A DNA stretch of 64,000 nucleotides from positions 1-64,000 of the forward strand of contig NZ_CP084912.1 in the NCBI RefSeq assembly GCF_020535245.1, given 5' to 3'. This DNA is from Asticcacaulis sp. AND118 (GTDB lineage: Bacteria; Pseudomonadota; Alphaproteobacteria; Caulobacterales; Caulobacteraceae). This document shows positions 32,886-51,022 of the stretch, piece by piece (positions within the stretch are counted from its first letter, which is position 1; the number at the start of each line of letters is the position of its first letter). The notes under the pieces are model-generated. The model made no database searches. It was not told where the DNA came from and worked only from the letters and a program-made list of their open reading frames with translations. The position numbers and the translations under genes are program-made.

Positions 32886-35800
32886 TCAGTAACGGTAGTT
32901 GAAGCTCAGGCTGACGGTGCGGCCGTTCTTGACGAAGGCGCGCGAGGAAGCTTCCGTCGGACCGTAGGACAGCCAGTAGGTGTGCTCGTCGAACATGTTC
33001 TGGACGTTGAGGCTGACGGTCGCTTTGTCCGTCAGGTTACGGCGCAGGTTCGCATCGACGAAGGTGTAGTCCTGCTCATACGGATTGTTGCCGAAATCCT
33101 GAATGCCGTTGAGCATTTCCGACTGATGGTTGACGGCCAGATAGCCTTCCCAGCCGTACTTTTCGTAGAACAGTTCGAGATTGTAGACGCGCTCCGGCGT
33201 TTCCATCAACGGCAGCTTGTAGCCGTCCGGGTGCCAGCTCATGCCGGTGACGGCTTCCGAAGTCTGGAAGGTGCCGTTGAACGACACGCCCAGACCGTCG
33301 AAAGGCGAGGGCAGCCAGTGCAGGATCTGACGGGCGCTGATCTCGACACCCTGCACTTTGGCCTTTTTACCGTTATTGGCCATGGTGATGAGGACGCCGT
33401 TCGGGTCTTCGTTTTCACCTGCCGTACCGTTACGGATGTTGGACGAGGACGAGCGGAACAGGAAGTTCCGGATGTCCTTGTAATAGGCCGCGACCGAATA
33501 GGCGCCGGTCTTGCCGTTATACCACTCCAGCGACACGTCGAAATTGGTCGCCTTCATCGGCTTCAGGTCGGGATTGCCCTTCTCGATGGCCACCAGTTGC
33601 CATTCGGCCACCGGGTTCTGCGTGCCGTTACCGTCCGGGTCGGTGTTGTAGCTATATTCTTCCGCCGAACTCATGCGGGCAATGTCCGGGCGGGCGAAGC
33701 TGGTCCAGATGGCACCACGCAGGATGACGTCGGGCCGCAGGCGGTAATTGGCGTGGATCGACGGCAGGACGTTGGTGAATTCGCTTTCGGTTTCCGAATA
33801 CTGGTTGCCGCGCTTCGGGTCCATCATCCACGCGCGGACGAGGTTCTCGGTCTTTTCGACGCGCACGCCCCCGATCAGGTTGAGCTTGCCGAACTGGGCC
33901 TCCGCCATGGCGTAGGCCGCGGTGACCTTTTCGTCGAAACCGAAGCTGTCCTCGTCGGAAATGGTCGCCTCATCCGGCGTCAGGGCGTCGCCGTCGAAGA
34001 AGGTCGAGGTGCCCGCCGTGGCGCGCGCCAGTTCGGCCAGCATCTTGTCGTCGTCGAGCACGATGCCGAGGCGATGATCGCCGCTGTACTGTCCGTCGAA
34101 CAAGCTGGTGACCGGTGTGCCGTAGAAGGGTGCGAAATCGGCCAGGGTGCCATTATTGTCGAGGTTGAGGAACGAGCCTTCGAACTTGGTGCGGTCCGAT
34201 TTGTAGATCTTGGCCCCGCCCTTCACGTTGCGCAGCCAGTCGTGATCGAACGCATAGGTCAGATTGATCTGGGCCTGTTTCAGGTCTTCCTTGACCGCCG
34301 ACACACCGGCTTCGAGACCGGCAAAGGCGAAGTTGGCCGGATCGTGGACGGCCTTCATGCCCGCGTCGTTCAGCACCCACTTGGGGTAGCGGGAATCGGC
34401 GCGGTTATCGACGCCGACGCCATTGTTGCCGAGCCAGTGATACTTGTCCGAGCGGAATTCCAACTCATATTCGCCATCGGCCTGATCCTCGGACTTCGAG
34501 GTCGAAAGGTCGTAATCGACCGTCAGACTGCCGAAGCGGCTCTTGCCGCCGAAGTTCAGCGACGACAACAGGCCGGTCGAATAGCTGCCCTCCCAGAAAC
34601 GCCGCAGGCGGAAGCCCTGCGGGTCCCACACGCCCGACGCGCCGTCGAGCGAATAGAGCGACTTGGTCGACTTGTCCTTGTCGGTGATGACGCCGTCCTT
34701 GTCGCGGTCGACGATCTGCGCCGTCGTGTAGCCGTAGATCTTGCCGCGGCTGTCCGAGCCGATGATCATCTGGTCCGGCGTCTTCAGCGTCTTGTCGGTC
34801 TTGTTGACCTGCGACAGGCGCGTCGAGAACTGACCCGTATCGTTACGGAAGTTCAGGCGCGTGGAAAATTCCTTTTCCTTGTATTCGTTATAGGTGCCGC
34901 GCAGGTGGAAGTCGTGGTCGTCGCCGCGCCAGTCGAGGGACGAGTTGATGCCCTTGCGCTCGATCTCGGTATGGCCCGTGGCGATCTGCATGCCGCGGAA
35001 GACGAAATCGTTCAGATCGGCGTCCAGCGTTTCCGAATTGGAATACCAGGTGCGCGGCTGGCTGTCGCCATCGCCGCCGTTTTCCTCGAACTGCGTCTTG
35101 CGCTTGGCGTAGGAGGCCGTGACGAACAGACCCAGACGATCGGAGAACTGACGGCCGAAGGACACCGAGGCCTTGCCGGAGGTCGGGTTGTCGAACTTGT
35201 CCATCACCGCGCCCTGTACGGCGACGCCGAAGAAGAGCGGCTTGACGTTGAAGGCGGTCGGCGTGTCGATCTCGACCGTGCCGCCCAGCGCGTCGCCGTC
35301 CATGTTCGGCATAATGGTCTTGTGCACCGTAATGCCGGCAATGCCTTCGGGCGGCAGGAAGCTGAGGCGGACGCCGCGATAGAACTGCGCGTCGCGCGAC
35401 CCCGCGCCCGACATCTTCACGCCGTTCATGGTGTAGTTGTTCAGTTCGGTCGACAGGCCGCGCACGGTGATGCGGTCGCCTTCACCGGTGCGGGCATCGC
35501 GCACGGCGTTGACGCCCGGCACTTTTGCGAGGGCTTCGGCGACGTTTTCGACCGGCAGGCGGCCCATGTCATCGGCGCTGACGCGATCCGAGACGTTCTT
35601 GTTACGTCGCTTGTCTTCCAGCGAGTCGAGCATGGCCCCGCGATAGCCGCGCACCACGATGGTTTCAGGTTCTTCGACCACCACGGCGGCGGTGTTCGAG
35701 GGTGTGGCCGCCGAAGCGGTCGCGCCGGCCTTGCGCAGGATGACCGAGCCGTCGCGGATGTCGGCGCTCAGGCCCGTCCCGGCCAGCAGCGCCTCAAGCG

Positions 35801-36053
35801 CAGCGCGCGGCGTCAGGTTGCCCGATACCGCCTTGCCTGTCTTGCCGGTCAGCAGCGCCGGATCGGCGACGACCTGAAGGCCCGACTGGCGCGAAAAGTC
35901 ATTGAGCGCACCCGACAGCGCCTTGGACTTGATGTCAAAGGTTTGCGCCGAACGCGCGGCGGGCTGAGCCAGAACCTGAGCCGGCGTCAACGCCCCGAAA
36001 GCCCCCAGGGCCACGGCCGACAGGCCGCAGACCAGTTTCAGTTTCGTCTTCAC
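32886..36053 (-). CDS. TonB-dependent receptor with N-terminal STN signalling domain
   Basis: The 1055-residue receptor starts with GTG (GTGGAGAG six bases before it), then a signal peptide ending near VLAQPA (about residue 30). An STN (secretin/TonB short N-terminal) domain follows (about 36-108; FDIKSKALSGALNDFSRQSG, SADIRDGSVILRK). A linker leads to the TonB box ETIVVRGYR, a plug (about 145-300; MGRLPVENVAEALAKVPGV) and a barrel ending SFNYRY. STN domains contact a FecR-type anti-sigma factor, and the FecR and sigma genes lie directly upstream. The receptor therefore probably reports its own substrate to the nucleus of this regulon. The substrate is not known; the downstream phosphatase hints at a phosphate ester or a phosphorylated glycan. 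Confidence 0.92.
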   Translation of the reverse strand: MKTKLKLVCGLSAVALGAFGALTPAQVLAQPAARSAQTFDIKSKALSGALNDFSRQSGLQVVADPALLTGKTGKAVSGNLTPRAALEALLAGTGLSADIRDGSVILRKAGATASAATPSNTAAVVVEEPETIVVRGYRGAMLDSLEDKRRNKNVSDRVSADDMGRLPVENVAEALAKVPGVNAVRDARTGEGDRITVRGLSTELNNYTMNGVKMSGAGSRDAQFYRGVRLSFLPPEGIAGITVHKTIMPNMDGDALGGTVEIDTPTAFNVKPLFFGVAVQGAVMDKFDNPTSGKASVSFGRQFSDRLGLFVTASYAKRKTQFEENGGDGDSQPRTWYSNSETLDADLNDFVFRGMQIATGHTEIERKGINSSLDWRGDDHDFHLRGTYNEYKEKEFSTRLNFRNDTGQFSTRLSQVNKTDKTLKTPDQMIIGSDSRGKIYGYTTAQIVDRDKDGVITDKDKSTKSLYSLDGASGVWDPQGFRLRRFWEGSYSTGLLSSLNFGGKSRFGSLTVDYDLSTSKSEDQADGEYELEFRSDKYHWLGNNGVGVDNRADSRYPKWVLNDAGMKAVHDPANFAFAGLEAGVSAVKEDLKQAQINLTYAFDHDWLRNVKGGAKIYKSDRTKFEGSFLNLDNNGTLADFAPFYGTPVTSLFDGQYSGDHRLGIVLDDDKMLAELARATAGTSTFFDGDALTPDEATISDEDSFGFDEKVTAAYAMAEAQFGKLNLIGGVRVEKTENLVRAWMMDPKRGNQYSETESEFTNVLPSIHANYRLRPDVILRGAIWTSFARPDIARMSSAEEYSYNTDPDGNGTQNPVAEWQLVAIEKGNPDLKPMKATNFDVSLEWYNGKTGAYSVAAYYKDIRNFLFRSSSSNIRNGTAGENEDPNGVLITMANNGKKAKVQGVEISARQILHWLPSPFDGLGVSFNGTFQTSEAVTGMSWHPDGYKLPLMETPERVYNLELFYEKYGWEGYLAVNHQSEMLNGIQDFGNNPYEQDYTFVDANLRRNLTDKATVSLNVQNMFDEHTYWLSYGPTEASSRAFVKNGRTVSLSFNYRY

Positions 36054-36170
36054 GTTATCTCTCCACTAACGCGGCCCCCACGGCCCGCTTATGGGAAAGA
36101 TGCGAAGGGTGTTTCCGGCCCGACAAATAATTATATGAATTAATTATGTATTTCGGATTTCGGTTTTGTG

Positions 36171-37106
36171 TCACCTATCCAGGATTGTGCCTTCATCCGT
36201 GTGGGTGACGCGCAAACCATAGCCGTTTTCAAGGGCTTTAATGACCAGATCCGGGTCCGAGACGCGGAAACGCCCGGAGACGGTCAGCCTACCTGTGGTA
36301 GCGTGACGCAGACGCACCGGCACCTTCGAGAAACGGTTGACCTCTTCGACGAGACGGCTGAGCGGCACGGCTTCGGCCTCAAACCAGCCGGAGCGCCAGT
36401 CGGGTTCGATCGACGGGTCGAAGCGCGACAGGGGCGGCGGCGCCCCGGCGGTAAAGCGATCTCCGGCGCGCAGGTCGTGGGCCTGACCATCGTCGCGCAC
36501 GCGCACATGGCCGCGATAGACCGACACCTCGGCCCCGCCGGGCAGCAGGTCGGTATTGAAGGCCGTGCCCAGCACCTCGATCTCGGTCCTGCGCGCGGCG
36601 ATAACGAAGGGGCGCGCCTCATCGCGGGCGACGTCGAAATAGGCTTCGCCACGCACCATCTCGACCACGCGCCGCTTTGCGCCGTAACGCACTTTCAATT
36701 CGGTGCCGCCGCTCAGCTCGATGCGCGTGCCATCCGGAAGCGGCGCACTCAGATGCTCGCCGGGGCCGGTCGTGAGGGCCACCAGATGCGCCGGCTCCGC
36801 CGGTTGCGGTCGGTGGCTCCAGACGCCCCAGCCGATCAGGCCGACCACAAGCACTGCCGCCGCCCCGGCCGAATGCGGCAGCCATTGGCGCCAGCGCCGG
36901 GCGTGCAGTCCTGTGGCGGCGGCATTCAGGGTCGGCGCATCGTAGGCCGCCAGACAATCGGCATAAAGGGCGGCGTGTTCGGGCGCGGCGGTGATCCACA
37001 GCTCGAACTGCCGCTCGACATGCGGCGGCACTTCGGGCTCGGACATGACGGCGACCCAGTGGGCGGCCTGCATTTCGGGGGTTTCGCTATCGACGGCGTG
37101 GATCAT
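36171..37106 (-). CDS. FecR-family anti-sigma factor / signal transducer
   Basis: The 311-residue inner-membrane protein has an N-terminal cytoplasmic DUF4880-type domain (about 1-60; AAHWVAVMS, FELWITAAPEHAALY), one transmembrane segment (about 80-97; AAAVLVVGLIGWGVW) and a periplasmic FecR domain (about 110-210; LTTGPGEHLSAPLPDGTRIE, VEVVRGEAYFDVA-like stretch, EVLGTAFNT). A C-terminal STN-like half (VPLSRLVEEVNRFSKVPVRL) would touch the receptor. It holds or activates the sigma factor in response to the STN receptor. The start overlaps the sigma stop by ATGA, so the two are co-translated. Confidence 0.93.
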   Translation of the reverse strand: MIHAVDSETPEMQAAHWVAVMSEPEVPPHVERQFELWITAAPEHAALYADCLAAYDAPTLNAAATGLHARRWRQWLPHSAGAAAVLVVGLIGWGVWSHRPQPAEPAHLVALTTGPGEHLSAPLPDGTRIELSGGTELKVRYGAKRRVVEMVRGEAYFDVARDEARPFVIAARRTEIEVLGTAFNTDLLPGGAEVSVYRGHVRVRDDGQAHDLRAGDRFTAGAPPPLSRFDPSIEPDWRSGWFEAEAVPLSRLVEEVNRFSKVPVRLRHATTGRLTVSGRFRVSDPDLVIKALENGYGLRVTHTDEGTILDR

Positions 37107-37630
37107 GACTGGCCCTCCGCGTGACGGGCCTGCCAGCGCTGGCGGGCGGCGTGGAGATCGCCCAGGGCACGGGTGATGTGCTTTTCGACGGCCTTGGGGT
37201 TGAGCCCCAGTTCGCGGCCGATCTCCTGACAGCTCTGGCCCTCGACGCGGCGGCGCAGGAAGACGTCGCGGCGCAGCGGGGGCATGGCGTTCAGCACCTG
37301 CATCATGGCGCGGGTCTCGGCGCGATCCTCGGCGATCCGGTCGGGCAGGGGATCGCTGCTGGCGATGTCATGGGCCGCGTCGAGTTCGGCCACGGGTTTT
37401 TGCCGTCGGTAATGTTCACGCACCAGGTTGGCGGCGATGCGGAAGGCCAGGGCGTGCATGCTGATGACGATGTTCGACTGCTGGTACTCGATGGCCTTGA
37501 GCAGGGTCTGCTGGGCGATGTCCTCGGCCAGATCCGGGTGTCGCGTGACGTTGAGCGCGTAGCGCGCCACCGCCTGTCGCAGATCTGCCCATTCTTCGGC
37601 CATAGGGTCGGCGCACCGGACCGCAGGCAT
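37103..37630 (-). CDS. ECF sigma factor, FecI type
   Basis: The 175-residue protein has a sigma-2 region (about 15-80; RHPDLAEDIAQQTLLKAIEY, AFRIAANLVREHYRR) and a sigma-4 helix-turn-helix (about 110-165; MPPLRRDVFLRRRVEGQSCQEIG, NPKAVEKHITRAL). The ATG at 37630 is chosen because GGAGG lies nine bases before it; an ATG at 37657 has no site. It would direct RNA polymerase to the receptor and phosphatase genes once released by FecR. The order sigma, FecR, receptor, phosphatase on one strand is that of a trans-envelope signalling locus. Confidence 0.92.
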   Translation of the reverse strand: MPAVRCADPMAEEWADLRQAVARYALNVTRHPDLAEDIAQQTLLKAIEYQQSNIVISMHALAFRIAANLVREHYRRQKPVAELDAAHDIASSDPLPDRIAEDRAETRAMMQVLNAMPPLRRDVFLRRRVEGQSCQEIGRELGLNPKAVEKHITRALGDLHAARQRWQARHAEGQS

Positions 37631-37777
37631 GCGGGACCGCCTCCAGATTATCGTCAAGGCGCACCTCTTAGACGCTTAAGATGACAGTTTTGCGCAAGAG
37701 TGAGCGCAAGCCATCTGTCTTAGATGCGCGAGGCCCGCAAAACCCGACAGGGGAGGCGTATTTTGGCGTCTTAGGCA

Positions 37778-38343: not shown

Positions 38344-39681
38344 ATGGTGACCTCACGACGGCTTGACGGCTGGAAGGCGATCGGCGGCCATTTCGGGCGC
38401 GACCGGACGACCGTCATGCGCTGGGCCCAGCAGCGGGGCTTGCCCGTACGGCGTCTGCCCGGCGGCAAGACCGGCACGGTCTACGCCTTCGTCCACGAAC
38501 TCGATAGCTGGGCCGCCCATCAGGGCGATCTCAACGAAGCCTCGACCAATGCGGCCGACGAGCCACCGCAAGTGGATGTGACGCCCGGTTTCTGGGCGCG
38601 CAACTGGCGGCGTCTGGCCGTGGCCGGACTAATGGCGCTGGCGCTGGCCTTCGCCATCGGCAATGTCTGGCCGCGCGGTCCCGCGACGACCGCACCGCCC
38701 GCCCTGCCGTCGGACCCGGCCCTCAGCGCCATGTACCTGGAAGCGCGCGACGCCTGGGCCCAGCGCACGCCCGAAAGTCTGGCGCGCGCGCTGGGTCTGT
38801 TCGAGGCCATTACGCGCAAGGAACCCGGTTTCGCCCCGGCTTGGGCCGGGCTGGCCGACGCCTACCTCTTGTCGTGCGAGTTCGGCACCTTGCCGGCGAC
38901 TGTGGTGTTCCCCAAGGCGAAACATGCGGCGCAGACCGCTCTGAAACATGATCCGCAACTGGCATCGGCCTACCGGGCGCTGGGCTTTGTGCAGTATTGG
39001 TGGGAGCACGATCCGACGGCGGCAGGCAAATCCTTTCGCCACGCGTTGAAGCTGTCGCCGCGCGATGCCCAGAGCCATTTCTGGTACGGCAATGTGCTGG
39101 TCGACAACGGTCAGACGGTGGCGGGCGTGCGCGAACTGAATGCCGCGCGGCTGATCGAACCGGGCAATGTTGCGATCCAGACCGATTTTGCCTGGGCGCA
39201 ATGGTCTGCCGGTGACGATGCGCCCGCGCGCTCGGCGCTCAACGGGCTGGCCCAAAGCCATCCGAACTTCGCCAATATTCACGACTATCTCAGCGTCATC
39301 AAACTCGCCGACGGCGACTATGTCGGCTATGTGCAGGACCTGTCGGAATTCGCCCGACTGGTGAAGGATGAGAGCCTTATGCGGCACTGCGACGAACTGC
39401 GCGCCGCGTTGAAGGTCGGGGTAGAGGCCGTCCAGACGCTGCTGATGGACCGCGCCATAGCCGAGATCAAGGCCGGCACGCGCCAGACCCACGCCTGGCC
39501 GGTTTTTCTGGCCAGCGTGGCGCAGAACCGCCGTCAGACCCTCGACCTGCTCGAAGCCGCCGACAGGCGCAACGAGATGTGGGGCTCCGCCGGACGTAAC
39601 GCGCGGATCGCCCGTTTGTGGATGGACGATGCCGAGATCAACCGTCTATTGCGCCAGCGCAAGGGCACGCCCGTCGAATAG
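38344..39681 (+). CDS. Membrane HTH-TPR protein, possible one-component regulator
   Basis: The 445-residue protein opens with a helix-turn-helix-like domain (about 1-60; LDGWKAIGGHFGRDRTTVMR, then WAQQRGLPVRRLPGGKTGTV) of the MerR/AlpA-like kind found before TPR regions. A single transmembrane segment follows (about 88-107; LAVAGLMALALAFAIGNVW), then several TPR-like repeats on the far side (about 130-330; FAPAWAGLADAYLLS, ASAYRALGFVQYWWEHDPTA, DAQSHFWYGNVLVDNGQ). This layout recalls CadC-type membrane regulators, with DNA binding inside and sensing outside. It precedes the secretin-like operon by 145 bp and faces a small secreted gene. A regulatory link to either is inferred. Confidence 0.75.
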   Translation: MVTSRRLDGWKAIGGHFGRDRTTVMRWAQQRGLPVRRLPGGKTGTVYAFVHELDSWAAHQGDLNEASTNAADEPPQVDVTPGFWARNWRRLAVAGLMALALAFAIGNVWPRGPATTAPPALPSDPALSAMYLEARDAWAQRTPESLARALGLFEAITRKEPGFAPAWAGLADAYLLSCEFGTLPATVVFPKAKHAAQTALKHDPQLASAYRALGFVQYWWEHDPTAAGKSFRHALKLSPRDAQSHFWYGNVLVDNGQTVAGVRELNAARLIEPGNVAIQTDFAWAQWSAGDDAPARSALNGLAQSHPNFANIHDYLSVIKLADGDYVGYVQDLSEFARLVKDESLMRHCDELRAALKVGVEAVQTLLMDRAIAEIKAGTRQTHAWPVFLASVAQNRRQTLDLLEAADRRNEMWGSAGRNARIARLWMDDAEINRLLRQRKGTPVE

Positions 39682-39826
39682 CGACGCTCTGCGACGCAGG
39701 CGCGCGGCAGGTTTCCGCCCTTTGCAACAATTTGCGACATGGGCAAACCCCAGAAAATATTCATGCTTTCCGTAGATTGCGGCAACCGCTCCGTTTCGGG
39801 GCCGGACCGCGGTCACGGAGGCATTT

Positions 39827-40477
39827 ATGGCGATCCTGACGCGCAGAACCCTGTTCAGACTGACGGCCGTGTCGCTGTCGGCAGCGGCGGTCGCGTCGGC
39901 CCCCGCCACACAGGCGGCCTTCGTGCCCCATACCGCCGTCAAGGCGCTGATCACGGCGCGTCAGACGGCTGTCTGCCACATCGCCGATCAGGACGGCATC
40001 CAGACCCTGCTGCTGATCGTCAATGGCAATCCCACCGAAGCCCATGCGCGTCGCAACGGCCTCTATCAGACGAAGGACCTGCGCCGCTCGCGCTCGGCCA
40101 AGGCCATTACCCCGGTCGACTTCAACCGCCTGATCGCGCTGGCCGGCGGTCTCAATCAAGGCGTCAACGGCACGCCGCGCGCCGCCGATTTTTTCAATCT
40201 CTATAACGCGCTGTCCTCGGCTCCGGCGACGCCCGACCCCTGCCCGCGCGATTTTTCTCAGCGCTCAAAGGCCGAACGCGCCCTGATCCGCCGCGACCTG
40301 GGCTTGAGCGAAAACCGGCGATACGCGCCCTGCTTCACCTTGGGCAGCAACGCCGTTCGGCTCGACTTCGCCGACGATCCCTTTTTCGATGCCTGGACGT
40401 TCGAGCGCGACGTTCAGGGACATTTTTACGGCCTGAGCCTTCCCGGTCTTCAGGCCATCTGGTCGCTGGAGCCCTAA
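39827..40477 (+). CDS. Tat-exported protein of unknown function
   Basis: The 216-residue protein has a Tat signal (LTRRTLFRLTAVSLSAAAVA, cleavage near TQAAF) and GGAG before its ATG. The mature part of about 185 residues contains three Cys (AVCHIAD, PDPCPRDF, YAPCFTLG). I recognise no domain. It ends one base before the start of the TPR-secretin lipoprotein gene, so the two are almost certainly co-transcribed and perhaps translationally coupled. The context suggests an exported partner of the secretin-like protein, but no function can be given. Confidence 0.75.
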   Translation: MAILTRRTLFRLTAVSLSAAAVASAPATQAAFVPHTAVKALITARQTAVCHIADQDGIQTLLLIVNGNPTEAHARRNGLYQTKDLRRSRSAKAITPVDFNRLIALAGGLNQGVNGTPRAADFFNLYNALSSAPATPDPCPRDFSQRSKAERALIRRDLGLSENRRYAPCFTLGSNAVRLDFADDPFFDAWTFERDVQGHFYGLSLPGLQAIWSLEP

Positions 40478-40478
40478 A

Positions 40479-42143
40479 ATGATGAGACACTTTATGAAGA
40501 TGCCCTCTTTCGTTCGCGTAACCCTGAGTGCCCTGCTGCTGTGCAGCGTGTCCGCCTGCGCCACCGCACCCGCCTCTGGGCCGGCCTCTGTCCCGCAACT
40601 GACCGCCGCGACCGCCAACCCGGCGGCGGCGCTGCAAAGCGGCGATTATGACGCCGCGTTGAAGGGGTTCGGCGATGCCGCGGCGCGTGAGCCGTCCGAT
40701 CCGGCGCGTCAGACCCTGCTGGGGTTGGCCTATCAGGCCTCGGCGCAAGGTTCAGGGCAAGGTTCAGGGCAAGGCGACCCGGAAAAACTCGACCTCGCTC
40801 TGGCCGGCTACGATCTGGCGCTGCGCAGCGGTCAGGACGCCTTCTGGGCCGCCGCGCTGGCCGGCAAGGCGGCGTTCGACAAGGGCCGTTATACGCAGGC
40901 CCAGAGCTACTATGCGCGCGCCGTCATCTCCCGCCCCGACGATCCGCGCGCCCTGCTCGGCCTGTCGATGAGCGCCTACATGGCCGGCGACCCGCAGATG
41001 GCGGCGCTGGTCGCGGAACGCGCCGCATCTGTCGCCAGGGATCGACCGACGCAGGCCTCGGCGCTACGTATGGCAACGCTATCGAACACCGCCGCCGGAC
41101 AGACCAACAGCGCGGCCCTGACCTATCAGAAGCTGGCCCTGATCGCGCCGGAAGAGGCGATGCAGGTACAGCCCCGTCTCGGCGATCTGACGCGCACACA
41201 GGCCGCCGACCCCGTCATGACGCCTGAGCCCGTCTCCGCTGCCGCCCCGGATCAGGTATCGGTCGATGTCGCCATCATCCTGTCGCAGAATTCGCAACGC
41301 GACTCGATCGGTCTGAATCTGCTCGACGGCCTGCAGGTCCAGTACGGCCGGCAGGATCTTCAGACCCATTCCGGCAGCGATGCCGGCGTGGCGCGGACCA
41401 TCACCGACACCATCAGCATTCCCCAGCTCACCTATAATCTCAACCTCTTCAACCGTTTCGGCCAGCACTATCAGGTCGTCGCCCGTCCGATGCTGACCGC
41501 CTATCGCGGTGAGCCTTCGGACTTCTTCGTAGGGCGCTCGACCAAGGTGGCGGTGAAGGGCGTCAACTTCTCCCAGCTCGAAAACATCGACATCGGCACG
41601 CAGGTCAAGGTGACACCTGTCGACATCACCGCCGAAGGTTCGCGCCTGCGCATCGAAGTCACGCGCTCCTTCCTCGCCGGCGAACCGGCGGGCAATTTCA
41701 ACGAAGCGCTGAACACCTGGCGGCAGACCGTTTCGACCACGGTCGAGGTGAAGTTCGGCACCACGCTGATCCTGTCGGGCCTGTCCGAAAGCGTGCGCGA
41801 CTCCTCGGTGACCAAGACGCCGATTCTGGGCGATGCGCCCCTGATAGGGTCTGGCTTCAACCGCCGCGTCACCAATGATCGCCGCGACGCCGTGCTGGTG
41901 CTCGTCACCCCCTCGCCCGCTCAGGCCTTCAAGAGCGAGCCGTGGGCGCGCCCCGCTGATGTGGAGCGCCTGATCGGCTTGTGGCACACGACCGTGTCCC
42001 CCGGTTCCGATCTCGGCACCATCACCACCAACCTGTCGCGTTCACGCCTGTTCAGCCGGGCGCGCAAAACCGATGCGCCGCTGAACTGGCCCAGCCTGCC
42101 CCGCGATCAGGGCGAAATCCTGAAGGAACTCATCCTGCCCTGA
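40479..42143 (+). CDS. Lipoprotein with TPR-like repeats and a secretin-like core
   Basis: The 554-residue protein has a lipoprotein signal with lipobox SVSAC and lipidation Cys27. Residues about 50-225 form TPR-like helical pairs (AALQSGDYDAALKGFGDAA, GRYTQAQSYYARAVISRPDD). Residues about 260-495 resemble the C-terminal secretin core of type II/III secretion systems: EVTRSFLAGE, STTVEVKFGTTLILSGLSES, the hallmark KTPILGDAPLIGSGF, then AVLVLVTPSPA. The usual N0/N1 periplasmic domains are absent and replaced by TPRs. Lipidation would place it at the outer membrane, where secretin cores form gated pores. No ATPase, inner-membrane platform or pseudopilin gene is nearby. It follows the Tat protein by one base and precedes two secreted proteins. 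A short tandem repeat (40746-40774) encodes Gly-Ser-Gly-Gln units between TPR helices. Confidence 0.8.
   Translation: MMRHFMKMPSFVRVTLSALLLCSVSACATAPASGPASVPQLTAATANPAAALQSGDYDAALKGFGDAAAREPSDPARQTLLGLAYQASAQGSGQGSGQGDPEKLDLALAGYDLALRSGQDAFWAAALAGKAAFDKGRYTQAQSYYARAVISRPDDPRALLGLSMSAYMAGDPQMAALVAERAASVARDRPTQASALRMATLSNTAAGQTNSAALTYQKLALIAPEEAMQVQPRLGDLTRTQAADPVMTPEPVSAAAPDQVSVDVAIILSQNSQRDSIGLNLLDGLQVQYGRQDLQTHSGSDAGVARTITDTISIPQLTYNLNLFNRFGQHYQVVARPMLTAYRGEPSDFFVGRSTKVAVKGVNFSQLENIDIGTQVKVTPVDITAEGSRLRIEVTRSFLAGEPAGNFNEALNTWRQTVSTTVEVKFGTTLILSGLSESVRDSSVTKTPILGDAPLIGSGFNRRVTNDRRDAVLVLVTPSPAQAFKSEPWARPADVERLIGLWHTTVSPGSDLGTITTNLSRSRLFSRARKTDAPLNWPSLPRDQGEILKELILP
40746..40774 (+). repeat. 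12-nt tandem repeat inside the secretin-like gene
   Basis: CAAGGTTCAGGG is present 2.4 times in a row and encodes Gln-Gly-Ser-Gly units in a loop between TPR-like helices. Copy number could change by slippage without a frameshift. Confidence 0.8.
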
Positions 42144-42175
42144 TCCTGTTGTGAGCCCGTTTGGAAAACCTCATC

Positions 42176-43567
42176 ATGCGCTACCTTCTTTTCCTCACCG
42201 CCGCGGTCCTTTCCCTTACCGCCCCGGCTGCCCACGCCGCCGTCGAGTCCGTCCACAGCGCCGCCCTGCGGGAGAGTAATGGCAACTGCAAAGGCGATCA
42301 GAGGACGTGGCAAGCCTCGCGTCTATCGGACATGGGCAAGGTGCTCAATCTGATCGGGCCGGGCGAGTTCACGCTCGAACTCTTCGCGCACGGCATAGAT
42401 ATCGATCCCAACGCGATCCATATCAGCGGTTCAAACACCATTCGGATCGTCTCGCGCAAAGGGACGAACGGTCCCGCCAATCTGCGAGCCGGATGCGGCG
42501 GTATCGGCTCGGTTCAACTCACTCTCAAGGTCAGTTCCGTGACGTCGCACCAAGACGCCAGGCTGCATGTCGGTGACGAATTTCTGGCGGTCACCGCCAA
42601 GACGCGCAATGTGACAGAACTGTACTGGCGGCCTCAGGAAGTCACGGTTGCGAGCAACTGCCTCAAACGCTTCTATACCGACTCGCTGAGAGGCGCGATC
42701 GACATGCCGACCGCGGTGCGAATGCTTCAGAAGCCCGATACACCATCGTCGCTTGAACTCCGGATATCGCCCTCGGCCCTGAAACAGGCCTGCCGCGACC
42801 ATCTCAATGGCACGCTTGCGCTCAATTTCGACTGGAAGCGCGAAACACCACCCGGCCATGCCCTGTATGACTCTGCGGCCACCGAACCGGTCCGGATTAC
42901 GGTGAAGCGCACCCAACAGGCCAACAATATCGTCAATTTCGCCCTGCCCCCCTATGAACGGACGCAAGAATGGACCGAGACATCGCTGCGTCTCGACCTG
43001 AGCGACCTCTCCGACTTTATCGGCACCACCACTTACGAAATCAGCGCAACGCCGGCCTACCCCTCGCAAAAGCCGTTGATCCTGACGGTGCAGTCCGAAC
43101 CGGCCAATGGCGTGCGCGATATGACCCTCAGTGCACCTGCGCCGGTCAGCGCCGACCGTCGGCTGCGCGCCAGCTACACGCTTCAGGTGCCCACCGCACC
43201 CGGCACGCAACTGCAATGGTCCACCCTCGCGTTCAACGAGGCCACATTGCAAAGCCTGCACACCTGTTACGCGGTCCCGGAAGGCACGATCACGCCCCGC
43301 GACGGCGTCACCACGGGCATGCTGGAACTGCTCCTCACCGACGCACCGGGCTGCGCCGGGGCGCTCGGTTCCGTCACCGTGAAATTCATCCGCGACAACC
43401 GGCCATCCAGCTACACCGGCAGCAGCCAGGACGAACCGCTGGCGGGCAAGACGGCCAATATCACCCTCCCCCGGAAGGTCTCGCTCGACCGGCCCTATCT
43501 CGCCCCCGTCACCGCCGCTCCGACTCTGGCGCAACCGCCCAGATCGATCGGTACGACCAAACCGTAA
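42176..43567 (+). CDS. Secreted beta-rich protein of unknown function
   Basis: The 463-residue protein starts at the ATG at 42176, which opens a typical signal peptide (MRYLLFLTAAVLSLTAPAAHA); a TTG 15 bp upstream is also possible. The mature part is beta-rich with several paired Cys (SNGNCKGDQ, LRAGCGGIGS, VASNCLKRF, SLHTCYAVP, DAPGCAGAL) and repeated strand patterns such as TLSAPAPVSADRRLRASYTL, suggesting several Ig-like domains. I recognise no family. It follows the secretin-like gene by 32 bp and precedes another secreted protein by 40 bp. It may be a cargo or a surface partner of the secretin-like lipoprotein. Confidence 0.75.
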   Translation: MRYLLFLTAAVLSLTAPAAHAAVESVHSAALRESNGNCKGDQRTWQASRLSDMGKVLNLIGPGEFTLELFAHGIDIDPNAIHISGSNTIRIVSRKGTNGPANLRAGCGGIGSVQLTLKVSSVTSHQDARLHVGDEFLAVTAKTRNVTELYWRPQEVTVASNCLKRFYTDSLRGAIDMPTAVRMLQKPDTPSSLELRISPSALKQACRDHLNGTLALNFDWKRETPPGHALYDSAATEPVRITVKRTQQANNIVNFALPPYERTQEWTETSLRLDLSDLSDFIGTTTYEISATPAYPSQKPLILTVQSEPANGVRDMTLSAPAPVSADRRLRASYTLQVPTAPGTQLQWSTLAFNEATLQSLHTCYAVPEGTITPRDGVTTGMLELLLTDAPGCAGALGSVTVKFIRDNRPSSYTGSSQDEPLAGKTANITLPRKVSLDRPYLAPVTAAPTLAQPPRSIGTTKP

Positions 43568-43607
43568 GCGTCCGCGTTTTTCCCCTCAGCTCCAAAAGGA
43601 AATCCCG

Positions 43608-45239
43608 ATGTCCAGACATCTTTTCGCGGCCCTGCTATGCGCGGGCGCCAGCACCCTCCCCTTGTCCGCAATCGCCCAGATCCGCACCCCGCAGATCGTG
43701 CCCGGCGCGCAGCAATCCCTGCTTGAAAACCGGCTGGAAACCACGCGCAAAGCCAAGCTGTCGCACATTATGGGCGTCGACACCTCCGACAGCCAGTGCG
43801 GCACCTACGACCCGGCGGGCCTGAGCAACCCGGTCATCTATCGCAACGATTCCGGCGCGGGGCGTCACATCGAACTTTTCGCCGGCGACACCGGTCTGGT
43901 GCTGATCGGCGATAATCTCGACCTGGTGGAAAAGGTCGTGCTGAACTACGACCCTGGTGAAGGCAGCGACATCACCGGCACCATCGTCTCGCGCCGCAAC
44001 GGCAATGCGGCCTGCGGCGAAGAACCGGCCGACAAGGTGCTGACCGTCCGCCTGAACATCCCGGTCGTCAATTCGGCCCGAAAGACCTACGGCGCGCTGG
44101 AACTGTACGCCAAGACGGCCTCGCTGCTCAAAAACCCGCCCAAGGTGCAAAATCCCAACGATCCGTGCCTGCCGCAGAACATCAATCTCGAAGCCGGTCT
44201 GCCGCCGCAATGCGCCCCCGGTTACGTGCCGCTGAACGAAGTCGTCGGCCTGGTCATTCTGCCCCTGCCGGAACTCACCGGACAGCGGGGCATCGATGAA
44301 ACCGACTTCGCCCCGGACATGGCGCGCGACCTCACGGTCGGCGGCATCAATCTGGATCAGTTCACCAACCTGCGCCTCGATCCGGGCAATCTGTCGCAGG
44401 CCGGCGGGCGCGGCTCGATCAGCGGTTCGCGCTTCGTCCGTCCGACCAGCCCGCCGCAGCCTGAAAGCCGCATCGAGACCAGGGCGGCATGGGAAGGCGT
44501 CCCGGGCTTCGCGATATGGAATTTCGCGCTGGTGCCGCAGATTCAGATGAAGCGCCAACCCAGGGGCGGCGCGGCGCGTCCCTTCGCCAGCTCCGCCACG
44601 CTGCGCGAGGTCAACGACACGATGTGGGGCGCCGCCGACGATCGCCGCCGGACCTTCCGCTCCACGCGATTTGCCGGTGAGCCGCTCAACTTCCGCTTCG
44701 AGATGCGGGCTCGCGTCAACAACCCGCCGCCGGAGACGTCGCCCATCGACGGCTTCGATCCCGGAAACCGGCTGTATGAAACGACCGGCGGCACGACGAT
44801 GGTCGGCAACAGCCCCGGCGAAAGCCAGCAGATCCTCACGGCCCTGAAAAGCAAGGCCTGGTGCTCGACCCTGCCGGTGCCGGCGCCCGGTCCGAACGGC
44901 GCGCGCACTGTGGCTCTGGGCACGACGACGCTCGGCCCGATACAATGGGGGGTGAAGAATATCAGCACGACGGCTTTCAACGGCAACATCACCGCCGAAC
45001 TGAAGCTGGGCGGCCGAACGGTCGACACGCTGAGTTTCAACGGCACGCTGGCCGCCGGCGGCACACAGGTCAAATCCTACACCCGTCCGACCCAGACCGT
45101 GAGCGTCGCCCGCGAGAGCCTCGGCGACGTCTGCTATCACGTTGGTCAGGACAGCGATCCGGTCGTTGAAAACAACGGCTACACTATCCGCATCACCACG
45201 CCCGGCTCGGCCACCGAGAGCCTGCGCACCTTGCCGTAA
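43608..45239 (+). CDS. Secreted protein with C-terminal CARDB-like domain
   Basis: The 543-residue protein has AAAAGGAAAT before its ATG and a signal peptide (MSRHLFAALLCAGAS...AIAQ). The first half has Ig-like strands (VIYRNDSGAGRHIELFAGDT, LVLIGDNLDLVEKVVLNYD) and a Cys-Pro stretch (NDPCLPQNINLE). The C-terminal 115 residues resemble a CARDB-type adhesion domain (QWGVKNISTTAFNGNITAEL, AAGGTQVKSYTRP, DSDPVVENNGYTIRI). It is the last gene of the four-gene set and is followed after 11 bp by a perfect 26-bp hairpin. A surface or adhesion role is possible but unproven. Confidence 0.75.
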   Translation: MSRHLFAALLCAGASTLPLSAIAQIRTPQIVPGAQQSLLENRLETTRKAKLSHIMGVDTSDSQCGTYDPAGLSNPVIYRNDSGAGRHIELFAGDTGLVLIGDNLDLVEKVVLNYDPGEGSDITGTIVSRRNGNAACGEEPADKVLTVRLNIPVVNSARKTYGALELYAKTASLLKNPPKVQNPNDPCLPQNINLEAGLPPQCAPGYVPLNEVVGLVILPLPELTGQRGIDETDFAPDMARDLTVGGINLDQFTNLRLDPGNLSQAGGRGSISGSRFVRPTSPPQPESRIETRAAWEGVPGFAIWNFALVPQIQMKRQPRGGAARPFASSATLREVNDTMWGAADDRRRTFRSTRFAGEPLNFRFEMRARVNNPPPETSPIDGFDPGNRLYETTGGTTMVGNSPGESQQILTALKSKAWCSTLPVPAPGPNGARTVALGTTTLGPIQWGVKNISTTAFNGNITAELKLGGRTVDTLSFNGTLAAGGTQVKSYTRPTQTVSVARESLGDVCYHVGQDSDPVVENNGYTIRITTPGSATESLRTLP

Positions 45240-45250
45240 TATGGCGTCCA

Positions 45251-45308
45251 GTCTCCTGCGAAGGGGTGACACATTCGGCAAAGAATGTGTCACCCCTTCG
45301 CAGGAGAC
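45251..45308. repeat. Perfect 26-bp inverted repeat after the secretin-like operon
   Basis: Bases 45251-45276 (starting GTCTCCTGCGAAGGGGTGAC) are exactly complementary to 45283-45308 around the loop GGCAAA. The next bases, GCTTATATC, do not form a T-run, so this is not a classic terminator, although such a stem could block readthrough or exonucleases. It begins 12 bp after the stop codon. Confidence 0.9.
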
Positions 45309-47779: not shown

Positions 47780-50700
47780 CTAGTTCAGGCTGTAGCTCAG
47801 GCCCGCACGGATCGACCAGCTTTCCAGACGGTCGCCATTATGCACATTGGCTTTGACAAACCCCTTGAGGTCCGGCGTGTTGCGCATCTGCGCGGTCAAG
47901 CCCGCAGAGACCTGACCGAAGCTGTCGAGGCGCTGACCGGCGATCCACACCGGCGCGCTGCCCGCACCCGAACGGTAGGCCGTCTGGGTGTCTGACGCGT
48001 CTTCGTTCCACACGCTCAGTTCGCCATAGGGCTGCCACAGGACGTGGCGGCTGCCGAGTTCCGTGCCGACCTTGACACCGAAGTGCAGGGCGCGGCTTTT
48101 GAGGCGCGCGACCTCGACCGAACCCAGGCCGGTCGGCAGGGTCAGGGCGTCGAGATCGATCAGGCTTTCGACATAGCCCGCCGACGGTTGGACCGTGTAG
48201 TGGCCGAAGGTCTTGACGCCGGACACCGTGGCCGAAACCGTATCGCCGCGGCCCTTGAGTGCAGCGCCCGCCACGGTGAGAACCGGGTTGGACACCTTGA
48301 GGCGCAGCAGGTCGTGACGGTTCTGCAGGCTTAAGCGCAGGCCGCCGCGAGTGACCAGCAGATAAGCGCCATAGTGCGGCACGTCATAGGTCGTTACCGC
48401 GCCGAAGAGGTCGGTGTCGCGGCTCTTGCCGTCGGTCGAACCGGCGAGGATACCGGCGCGCAGATTCACGCCCGAACCGCCGATATTATAGACCCCGGCG
48501 TCGAAACCGTATTGCGTACCGTCCTGCAAGGCCTTGGCGCGGCTGATACCGTCACGCGAATAGGTGTCGGAAATCGCCGCACCGGATTCCAGATCGGTTT
48601 GGCTGGTATAGGCTTCGGCCCAGGTCCGGCCCATCCACTGGTTGGCGCCGAACTGACCCTTAGTGTCGATCGCGCTATCGGGCAGGTCGGACAGGGTCAG
48701 GTTCTGGCCGGTGACGAAGGCGGTGACGCCCGTCGCTAGGCTGGCGAGCGCCGGGGTGTTCAGGGTGGAAACGATGCCCCAGTCATTGCCGCCGTCGATC
48801 TTGCGGAAGTCATAATTGATCAGGGCGCGCGTGTTGAGCGCCGCTTGGGTGTCCGCATCCGTCGCAACGGTGAAGGTGGCCGTGCTGTTGCCGGCGGCGA
48901 TCAGCACGACCGGGGCCGACAGATAGGTCTTGGCCGCGTTGAGGTTACGCAGGCGGATGGTCGACTGTCCCGCCAGGCTGGCGGCGGTCAGTCGGTCCGC
49001 CGCACCGGTCGCCAAGTCGACGTCGAACGACAGGACCGAACCGGCCGAACCCGTATAGGCGCCGGTCAGGGCGATGGTGTCGCCGGTGCGGCCGTTGAGC
49101 ATGGCCACGGTGCCGGCATTGCTCAGCGAAGCGGCGTTGAGGTGACCTGCCCCGGCGGTTGTGCCGACCAGTATCGTCGCATTGGCGGCATTGGTGACGC
49201 TGCCCGCGCCGCTCAGCGTCGTGGCGTTGACGTTCAGCGTGCCCGAATTGGCGATGGCTGCGCCGTTGAACGACAGGTCGCCAGTCAGGGTGAATACGCC
49301 TGAATTGGTCAGAGCGCCGTTGATCACGCCACGCGCCTGCGCCGTGCCGCTGTTCGTCACGGCGCCATTGATGCGGTTGGTGGAGATCAGGGTGCCCGAA
49401 GAGGCGATGGCGCCGTTCCAGACGCCGCTATTGGTCAGGGTGCCGGTGTTCGAACGCACCGCGCCCGTCCACATGCCGGTGGCGCGGTTGAGGATCGTGC
49501 CGCCATTGGTGTTGACGATGGCGTTGGCCACGCCCGCATTATCGATAGTCCCGGCGTTGTCCAGATCGTCGGTCAGCGTGCCGCCCTGAGCGATAACGAT
49601 TTGACCACCGGTCAGGTTGGCGACGCCGCCCGCCGTCAGCGACGTGCCGTTACCGATAGCGACGGTACCTGTGTTAGTCAGCGGGCCGGTCGTCGTCAGG
49701 CTACCCGTCGTCGTCAGAGCGCCGGAATTATCGATCGCGCCGGTCGTGCCGCGCGCCTGCAACGTGCCGGTGTTGGTGACCACACCATTGATCGTGCCCG
49801 TCGTGACCAGCGTCCCCGAAGAGGCCATATTGCCGTTCCAGACACCGCTATTGGTCAGGGTGCCGGTGTTCGAACGCACCGCGCCCGTCCACACACCCGT
49901 GGAATCGTTCAGGATCGTCCCGCTGTTGCTATTGACGATGGCGTTGGAGGTCCCGGCGTTTTCATACGCACCGGCATTGTCCATATCGTCGGTCAGCGTC
50001 CCCCCCTGAAGGACGATCACCTTGCCGCCCGCCAGATTGCTTAGACCACCCGCCGTCAGGGTGCCGCCATTGCCGACAACGAAGACGCCGCCGTTACTGA
50101 CCGTAACCCCCGACGTGTTGAGAATGCTGCCTGTGAGACGGACCTCGGCGCCGTTTTCGATCGTCGTTGCACCCGTATAGGTGCTGACGCCCGTGAGGAC
50201 CAGATAACCGCCGGAGCCGCTGTTGATAAAGCGAATGCCGCCGCCGCTCGTGGCGTCTGTAAGCTGCCCGCCGAGAGTATTGATCAGGCCCGATACATCG
50301 AGGGCGTTACCGGCATTATTGGCCAGTTGGAAATGGTCGGCATAGGTGTGGTTGCCGCTCGTGAAGTACAGCGTACCGCCATTGAAGACCGGATTGAGCG
50401 TCGAGCCGAGATTGGCCGCGTCGAAACCCGATGCCGAAGACGTATCGATATCGGTCGTGGTCGGCGTGCCGGCGAAGGTGCCCCAGTTGAAGGTCGTGCC
50501 CGTGGCGAAGAACGAAACCGGCGTGGTGAACGCCGTATTCGGTGAGTAGGTCGACAGGAAGAGATAGTAGGTCTGACCCGCCGTCAGATTGGCTCTGAAA
50601 GCCGAACAGACACCGCCGCAACCGATCGAGGTGACCCCCGCCTGAGCCAGCAGTCCGGCATTGTCGTCATTGCCGACCAGCGCGTTGACGCTGGGGTTCA

Positions 50701-51022
50701 GCGGATCGAAGCTACCGCGGTAAAGGATCGAGATGGGGTCGAAGTTCGCTTCATAAACCCCGAACAGCGCGTTGGTCACATCGGTCGTCGGCGTAAAATA
50801 GACCGTCACATAGTTGTAGAGATAATTGCCCGTCGCCAGATTCGAGAGATTGGAGAGCGGACCGTTGCCGAGATAGGCCTGATTAAGGCTGATCTGCGCG
50901 GGCGTCTGACCGGTGACGCTGTAGGTCGAGGTCTGGGCACTGGCCGACAGCGCGGCAGCAGACACGAAAGCGAAGGCGGATGCGCCGGCCAGAAGCCGGG
51001 TTACTGAACTGAGTTTACGCAT
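47780..51022 (-). CDS. Autotransporter (type Va) with tandem passenger repeats
   Basis: The 1080-residue protein has a signal peptide (to ALSASAQTS, about residue 30). A beta-sandwich-like region follows (about 31-190; VTVYFTPTTDVTNALFGVYE, two close Cys in IGCGGVCSAF), then a long Gly/Asn/Thr-rich beta-helix passenger (about 210-760; TYTGATTIENGAEVRLTG is the typical PATR-like autotransporter motif). The C-terminal 270 residues form the autotransporter barrel (WMGRTWAEAYTSQ, GFDAGVYNIGGSGVNLRAGI). The passenger contains two tandem units of 140 residues that are partly identical in DNA. It would present or release a surface protein; no protease or adhesion motif is evident. The ribosome site is weak. 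The final residue is Asn rather than the usual Phe. Confidence 0.88.
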   Translation of the reverse strand: MRKLSSVTRLLAGASAFAFVSAAALSASAQTSTYSVTGQTPAQISLNQAYLGNGPLSNLSNLATGNYLYNYVTVYFTPTTDVTNALFGVYEANFDPISILYRGSFDPLNPSVNALVGNDDNAGLLAQAGVTSIGCGGVCSAFRANLTAGQTYYLFLSTYSPNTAFTTPVSFFATGTTFNWGTFAGTPTTTDIDTSSASGFDAANLGSTLNPVFNGGTLYFTSGNHTYADHFQLANNAGNALDVSGLINTLGGQLTDATSGGGIRFINSGSGGYLVLTGVSTYTGATTIENGAEVRLTGSILNTSGVTVSNGGVFVVGNGGTLTAGGLSNLAGGKVIVLQGGTLTDDMDNAGAYENAGTSNAIVNSNSGTILNDSTGVWTGAVRSNTGTLTNSGVWNGNMASSGTLVTTGTINGVVTNTGTLQARGTTGAIDNSGALTTTGSLTTTGPLTNTGTVAIGNGTSLTAGGVANLTGGQIVIAQGGTLTDDLDNAGTIDNAGVANAIVNTNGGTILNRATGMWTGAVRSNTGTLTNSGVWNGAIASSGTLISTNRINGAVTNSGTAQARGVINGALTNSGVFTLTGDLSFNGAAIANSGTLNVNATTLSGAGSVTNAANATILVGTTAGAGHLNAASLSNAGTVAMLNGRTGDTIALTGAYTGSAGSVLSFDVDLATGAADRLTAASLAGQSTIRLRNLNAAKTYLSAPVVLIAAGNSTATFTVATDADTQAALNTRALINYDFRKIDGGNDWGIVSTLNTPALASLATGVTAFVTGQNLTLSDLPDSAIDTKGQFGANQWMGRTWAEAYTSQTDLESGAAISDTYSRDGISRAKALQDGTQYGFDAGVYNIGGSGVNLRAGILAGSTDGKSRDTDLFGAVTTYDVPHYGAYLLVTRGGLRLSLQNRHDLLRLKVSNPVLTVAGAALKGRGDTVSATVSGVKTFGHYTVQPSAGYVESLIDLDALTLPTGLGSVEVARLKSRALHFGVKVGTELGSRHVLWQPYGELSVWNEDASDTQTAYRSGAGSAPVWIAGQRLDSFGQVSAGLTAQMRNTPDLKGFVKANVHNGDRLESWSIRAGLSYSLN
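49235..50074 (-). repeat. Two tandem 420-bp coding repeats
   Basis: The autotransporter passenger contains two units of exactly 420 bp (about 49655-50074 and 49235-49654). They share 49 identical bases in a row (49425-49473 and 49845-49893) and motifs such as GGTLTDD, GVWNG and TGAVRSNTGTLTNSG. Outside that core they have diverged, so the duplication is old or is being kept similar only in part. Confidence 0.8.

Follow-up and report, generated by a model that had tools for sequence, protein, structure and literature searches.

A lipoprotein combining TPR repeats and a secretin core, linked to exchangeable secreted proteins, in Asticcacaulis sp. AND118

Gene content of the locus

The window analysed here is a stretch of 64,000 nucleotides of Asticcacaulis sp. 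AND118 (contig NZ_CP084912.1, positions 1 to 64,000, forward strand; assembly GCF_020535245.1). It contains a unit of five co-directional genes (38344-45239) built around a lipoprotein in which a tetratricopeptide repeat (TPR) domain precedes a secretin core, called TPR-secretin below. Each gene is an open frame with a strong coding signal, and the gene order, coordinates and gaps proposed in the first-pass annotation of this DNA were all confirmed.

The first gene (38344-39681, on the forward strand like the other four) encodes a putative membrane regulator of 445 residues with an N-terminal helix-turn-helix (HTH), one transmembrane segment and a periplasmic TPR domain (Pfam TPR matches and a weak match to HTH_17). 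After 145 bp follows the gene of a 216-residue exported protein (39827-40477) with a signal of the twin-arginine translocation (Tat) type and an S/T-R-R motif at the N terminus. From this gene on the spacing is tight, with gaps of 1, 32 and 40 bp. The TPR-secretin gene (40479-42143) encodes 554 residues with the lipobox VSAC27. It is followed by two genes for secreted proteins with Sec signals. The first (42176-43567; an alternative TTG start is possible at 42161) encodes 463 residues with predicted immunoglobulin (Ig)-like beta-sandwich domains and is assigned to cargo family A, whose relatives stand beside the secretin elsewhere. The second (43608-45239) encodes 543 residues of cargo family B, whose orthologues follow the secretin in congeners. 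Both cargo proteins had been described earlier as belonging to no known family, and indeed neither they nor the Tat protein have a family match in Pfam or PHROG, or a meaningful one in NCBIfam.

Directly 3' of the last gene lies a perfect 26-bp inverted repeat with a 6-nt loop (45251-45308), and its last position is where the first-pass annotation had ended the locus. The repeat has no T run and is present in a single copy within the window. It probably marks where the transcription unit ends, or else is a small palindromic repeat.

A secretin core and a TPR domain in one chain

The product of 40479-42143 matches the Pfam secretin domain PF00263 with an E-value of 1.1e-22 and a score of 80.9 bits (cut-off 27.5), over positions 7-165 of 169. 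With a domain score above the curated cut-off, it is predicted to be a member of the secretin superfamily with a true secretin domain. The lipid site is C27, the TPR region spans residues ~45-243, the secretin core ~257-480 and a conserved C-terminal tail 530-554. The combination of TPR repeats and a secretin-like core in one lipoprotein, lacking N0/N1 domains, is thus as first described: STN, Secretin_N and T2SS-T3SS_pil_N were not found by Pfam even at E<=1, and the N-terminal half is TPR. A profile search with TPR-secretin retrieves solved secretin structures, and no non-secretin family aligned better to the core.

NCBIfam models of SctC, GspD and PilQ match the core, all far under their curated cut-offs, and PHROG 1012 (pIV of M13) matches at 8e-16, on par with the GspD and SctC models. 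Because the named models fall below their cut-offs and the pIV match is similar, TPR-secretin is best described as a secretin outside every named subfamily. The PHROG match would also fit a leftover exit pore from a filamentous phage, and pIV too is a secretin outside a full secretion machine. However, TPR-secretin is cellular, TPR-fused and linked to secreted Ig-like proteins, no phage gene lies nearby, no relative was found in viral contigs, and the gene is spread across orders together with regulators and cargo. A phage origin of this kind is disfavoured and very improbable.

An AlphaFold model of TPR-secretin, built from 22 sequences, contains a confident TPR domain (~45-243) and a confident C-terminal segment (530-552, block pLDDT 74-86), the latter preceded by a poorly modelled stretch. 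Foldseek matched the core of the model to GspD, InvG, PilQ and RcpA, and structural matches of the TPR part include MamA and PilW. In a second structural comparison the TPR fold aligned with PilW (2vq2) at Z 14.7 and a root-mean-square deviation of 4.7 over 179 residues; TPR domains crowded its list, and the secretin part was therefore assessed by Foldseek and profiles. When the model was aligned with structures of TPR proteins, several of the alignments reached residue 553/554, and the model suggests that the C-terminal tail packs on the TPR domain of the same chain.

In the Tad system, C-terminal residues of the secretin RcpA bind a groove of the TPR lipoprotein pilotin TadD, and this binding is needed for assembly (PMC10499894). 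The locus resembles RcpA/CpaC with TadD in pairing a secretin core with a TPR lipoprotein, but here both are in one chain, no N-domain was found, and no CpaF, TadB/TadC or pilin gene adjoins. PilQ of type IVa pili likewise works with a TPR lipoprotein pilotin (PilF/PilW), and the TPR fold described here resembles PilW, whereas in TPR-secretin the two parts are fused and the genome contains no type IVa motor or platform. The entire secretin core is strongly conserved. Of 22 TPR-secretin orthologues, 18 have the lipobox, and the 4 without it also have divergent tails. A lipobox, TPR domain and tail in one chain, with tails altered where the lipobox is missing, suggest a self-piloting secretin.

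Conservation in Asticcacaulis

Orthologues of TPR-secretin (59-79% identity) are found in 10 of 24 other Asticcacaulis genomes, or 11 of 25 with that of the window. Genes of related loci were called with a codon-model caller, which may miss small genes. In 10 of the 11 secretin-positive genomes the HTH-TPR regulator, the Tat protein and TPR-secretin stand together in this fixed order, as the first-pass placement of a membrane HTH-TPR protein in front of the secretin would have it. The Tat protein was detected in 10 of 390 genomes of the family, all of them secretin-positive, and nowhere else in the family. All 10 orthologues have S/T-R-R at the N terminus. The HTH motif of the regulator, DGWKxI..FGRDRTTVMRWA, is nearly invariant across 9 orthologues. 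This regulator is also present in four secretin-free Asticcacaulis genomes (L161, L162, L163, L164; ~57% identity), in other neighbourhoods and without the rest of the unit, and is therefore portable.

The 3' side of the unit is more varied. Between one and three proteins, mostly with N-terminal signal sequences, follow TPR-secretin, and they come from at least four families (A, B, C, D) without detectable kinship, plus singletons. Relatives of cargo A are found beside TPR-secretin in four other Asticcacaulis loci, and orthologues of cargo B follow it in two congeners. Taken as a union, families A-D occur in 11/11 secretin-positive and 0/14 secretin-negative genomes (Fisher p 2e-7, uncorrected for descent), a count that takes in cargo copies away from the secretin locus. 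Unlinked cargo copies among other genes were found in 4 secretin-positive genomes and in no negative one (p 0.026, likewise uncorrected). The linked partnership first proposed for the four genes therefore stands for the Tat protein, linked in 10 genomes, and for the secreted neighbours as a class. It does not stand for the two particular secreted proteins of the window, which are not fixed and are interchangeable among several.

In the structural model of cargo A an N-terminal beta-sandwich reaches a block pLDDT of 72-85, while the full-length model is of poor quality, with a mean pLDDT of 52. Foldseek matched it to generic Ig-like proteins, at low TM-scores. Cargo A is thus predicted to fold in part as an Ig-like beta-sandwich. 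Sequence searches found no solved-structure match for cargo A or cargo B. A common origin found no support in profile comparison, either for cargo A and B (probability 0.6%) or for cargo A and D (0.4%).

A partial copy of the secretin C terminus is present in Asticcacaulis sp. AC402, where it separates cargo B from the gene of the next secreted protein (locus L007, 6797-6883). It is 29 residues long, ends in a stop and is 62% identical to the C terminus encoded in the window. This remnant is a trace of recombination at the secretin 3' end.

Relatives in other genera and orders

Outside the genus, TPR-secretin orthologues with 45-52% identity were found in Novosphingobium, Sphingomonas, Sphingopyxis, Aquisalinus and Caulobacter metagenome-assembled genomes. 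Those loci lack the HTH-TPR and Tat genes; in most of them a two-component system, consisting of a membrane histidine kinase and a LuxR-type response regulator, adjoins the secretin in their place. In two Novosphingobium loci and one Sphingomonas locus the secretin is followed by relatives of cargo A, which in Aquisalinus are in the vicinity. Another Novosphingobium has a relative of cargo B (36%) near its secretin. Since loci of other orders keep the cargo under different regulators, the secretin and its secreted neighbours are the constant part of the system and its regulation is the variable part. More distant TPR-secretins, without N-domains in Pfam, are present throughout the class, and no ATPase of the searched motif was found within ~9 kb of them.

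The linkage could reflect nothing more than the shared ancestry of a genomic island whose genes function separately, and the genes flanking the unit are mostly unlike between species, as this would predict. Yet the secretin is linked to relatives of cargo A or B across orders under different regulators, and the stand-alone cargo copies are restricted to secretin-positive genomes. An island without functional coupling is accordingly regarded as distinctly unlikely.

At three sphingomonad loci a putative HerA-like ATPase (motif GNSGSGKS) adjoins the kinase and regulator genes (L125 5752-7212, L127 6758-8230, L129 16226-17698); this neighbourhood may be chance synteny. At another locus (L064, 7875-11623) a tandem pair of TPR-secretin genes lies near the gene of a 1098-residue exported protein with Vps62-like and ricin-B-like matches.

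Absence of a matching motor

The genome of the window is 99.9% complete and contains two secretins, TPR-secretin and a CpaC-like one at 324 kb on contig 1. The sole two T2SSF proteins of the genome (318-320 kb) and a CpaF-type ATPase (321 kb) lie close to the latter, that is, these genes form a Tad cluster. A GspE-type ATPase and GspF are absent from the whole genome, in which only the Tad T2SSF pair, CpaF and three VirB11-like ATPases were found; a type IVa PilB-type ATPase and a PilC-type T2SSF protein were not found in it either. The first-pass annotation had noted no secretion ATPase, platform or pilin gene nearby, and this now extends to the entire genome in that machinery of the GspF/GspE type is confined to Tad. 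Near the TPR-secretin gene there is no CpaF, TadB/TadC or Flp pilin, and no type III export apparatus or basal body rings were seen there, the neighbourhood being the only region inspected for these. A type II secretion system (T2SS) hidden elsewhere was also considered, and genome-wide search found none.

TPR-secretin shares the secretin domain with GspD of the T2SS, and its neighbours carry Sec or Tat signals like T2SS substrates. It differs in that N0-N3 domains were not found, no T2SS genes lie nearby and the motor and platform of that system are missing from the genome. Some congeners do have GspE-type ATPases (G005, G007, G011, G022, G023) and extra T2SSF proteins (the same genomes and G021). 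T2SS presence is unrelated to TPR-secretin (2/11 secretin-positive versus 4/14 negative genomes; Fisher p 0.66).

The Tad pilus is the genome's one other machine of the secretin type, and its TadD is a TPR lipoprotein (PMC10499894). It might use TPR-secretin as an alternative or accessory secretin, lending it the CpaF motor and TadB/TadC platform. But the Tad cluster has a CpaC-like secretin of its own, T2SSF pairs occur in 25/25 Asticcacaulis genomes against 11 with TPR-secretin, and no pilin gene was seen beside the latter. A Tad role is considered slightly less probable still than the uncoupled island. The three VirB11-like ATPases may serve as a power source for TPR-secretin.

Proposed mode of action

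Textbooks present secretins as components of large machines powered by ATP. The arrangement described here is real and conserved and uses a known protein fold, and it is apparently undescribed: searches of open-licence papers for lone or TPR-fused secretins found nothing relevant. The chances are judged about even that TPR-secretin is a lone self-piloted secretin, with a TPR lipoprotein pilotin fused to the secretin core, whose task is to export or display Ig-like proteins delivered by Sec. The TPR domain and lipid anchor would act as a pilotin of the TadD/PilF type within the secretin's own chain. With both built in, TPR-secretin could reach the outer membrane and form a ring without a separate pilotin. 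The Ig-like neighbours would cross the inner membrane via Sec and would then cross, plug or be displayed by the ring, which would need no motor of the GspE/GspF type. Cargo genes are swapped between species. Regulation would fall to the HTH-TPR membrane protein and its Tat-exported partner here, and in other lineages to a histidine kinase with a response regulator. That Alphaproteobacteria possess in this a minimal system for secretion or surface display that runs without a motor, with one self-piloted secretin, exchangeable Ig-like cargo and interchangeable regulatory modules, has a somewhat less than even chance of being correct. The comparative data strengthen the system-level reading; we infer that a ring forms, that the protein pilots itself, that cargo is exported or displayed, and that the regulators act as proposed.

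Several points weigh against an exporter. Confidence in the secretin strands of the AlphaFold model is moderate to low, with block pLDDT values of about 25-83. On an rpoB tree TPR-secretin requires ~5 gains or losses and is clustered beyond chance, and for this reason the co-occurrence counts are not independent. The secreted neighbours may simply be partners of an ordinary kind in the periplasm. Finally, known secretins through which folded proteins travel operate together with a motor, and none is apparent here, though a Tad motor and three VirB11-like ATPases are present.

The ring might instead be an outer-membrane scaffold that exports nothing. The Ig-like proteins would bind to it, either on the periplasmic side or on the cell surface, and the envelope would thereby be strengthened or patterned. 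TPR domains are modules for binding, and such a scaffold would also agree with the partial beta-sandwich fold of cargo A and the missing motor. On the other hand, a protein that was no more than a scaffold would hardly be expected to keep its entire secretin core so strongly conserved, and the exchange of cargo fits passengers at least equally well. A scaffold is therefore regarded as rather unlikely. If the self-piloted exporter is correct, a secretin can act as a free-standing gated exporter, fused to its pilotin, present in several orders, with changing cargo and in a genome that lacks a motor to match. The power source for passage through a secretin would then become directly testable in a setting of few genes.

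Other genes in the window

Two further regions of the window were noted by eye. Upstream of the unit (32886-37657) lie consecutive genes for a TonB-dependent receptor whose N terminus looks STN-like, a FecR-like anti-sigma factor and a sigma factor resembling the extracytoplasmic function type. Downstream (47780-51022) is the gene of a repeat-rich, autotransporter-like protein of 1080 residues.
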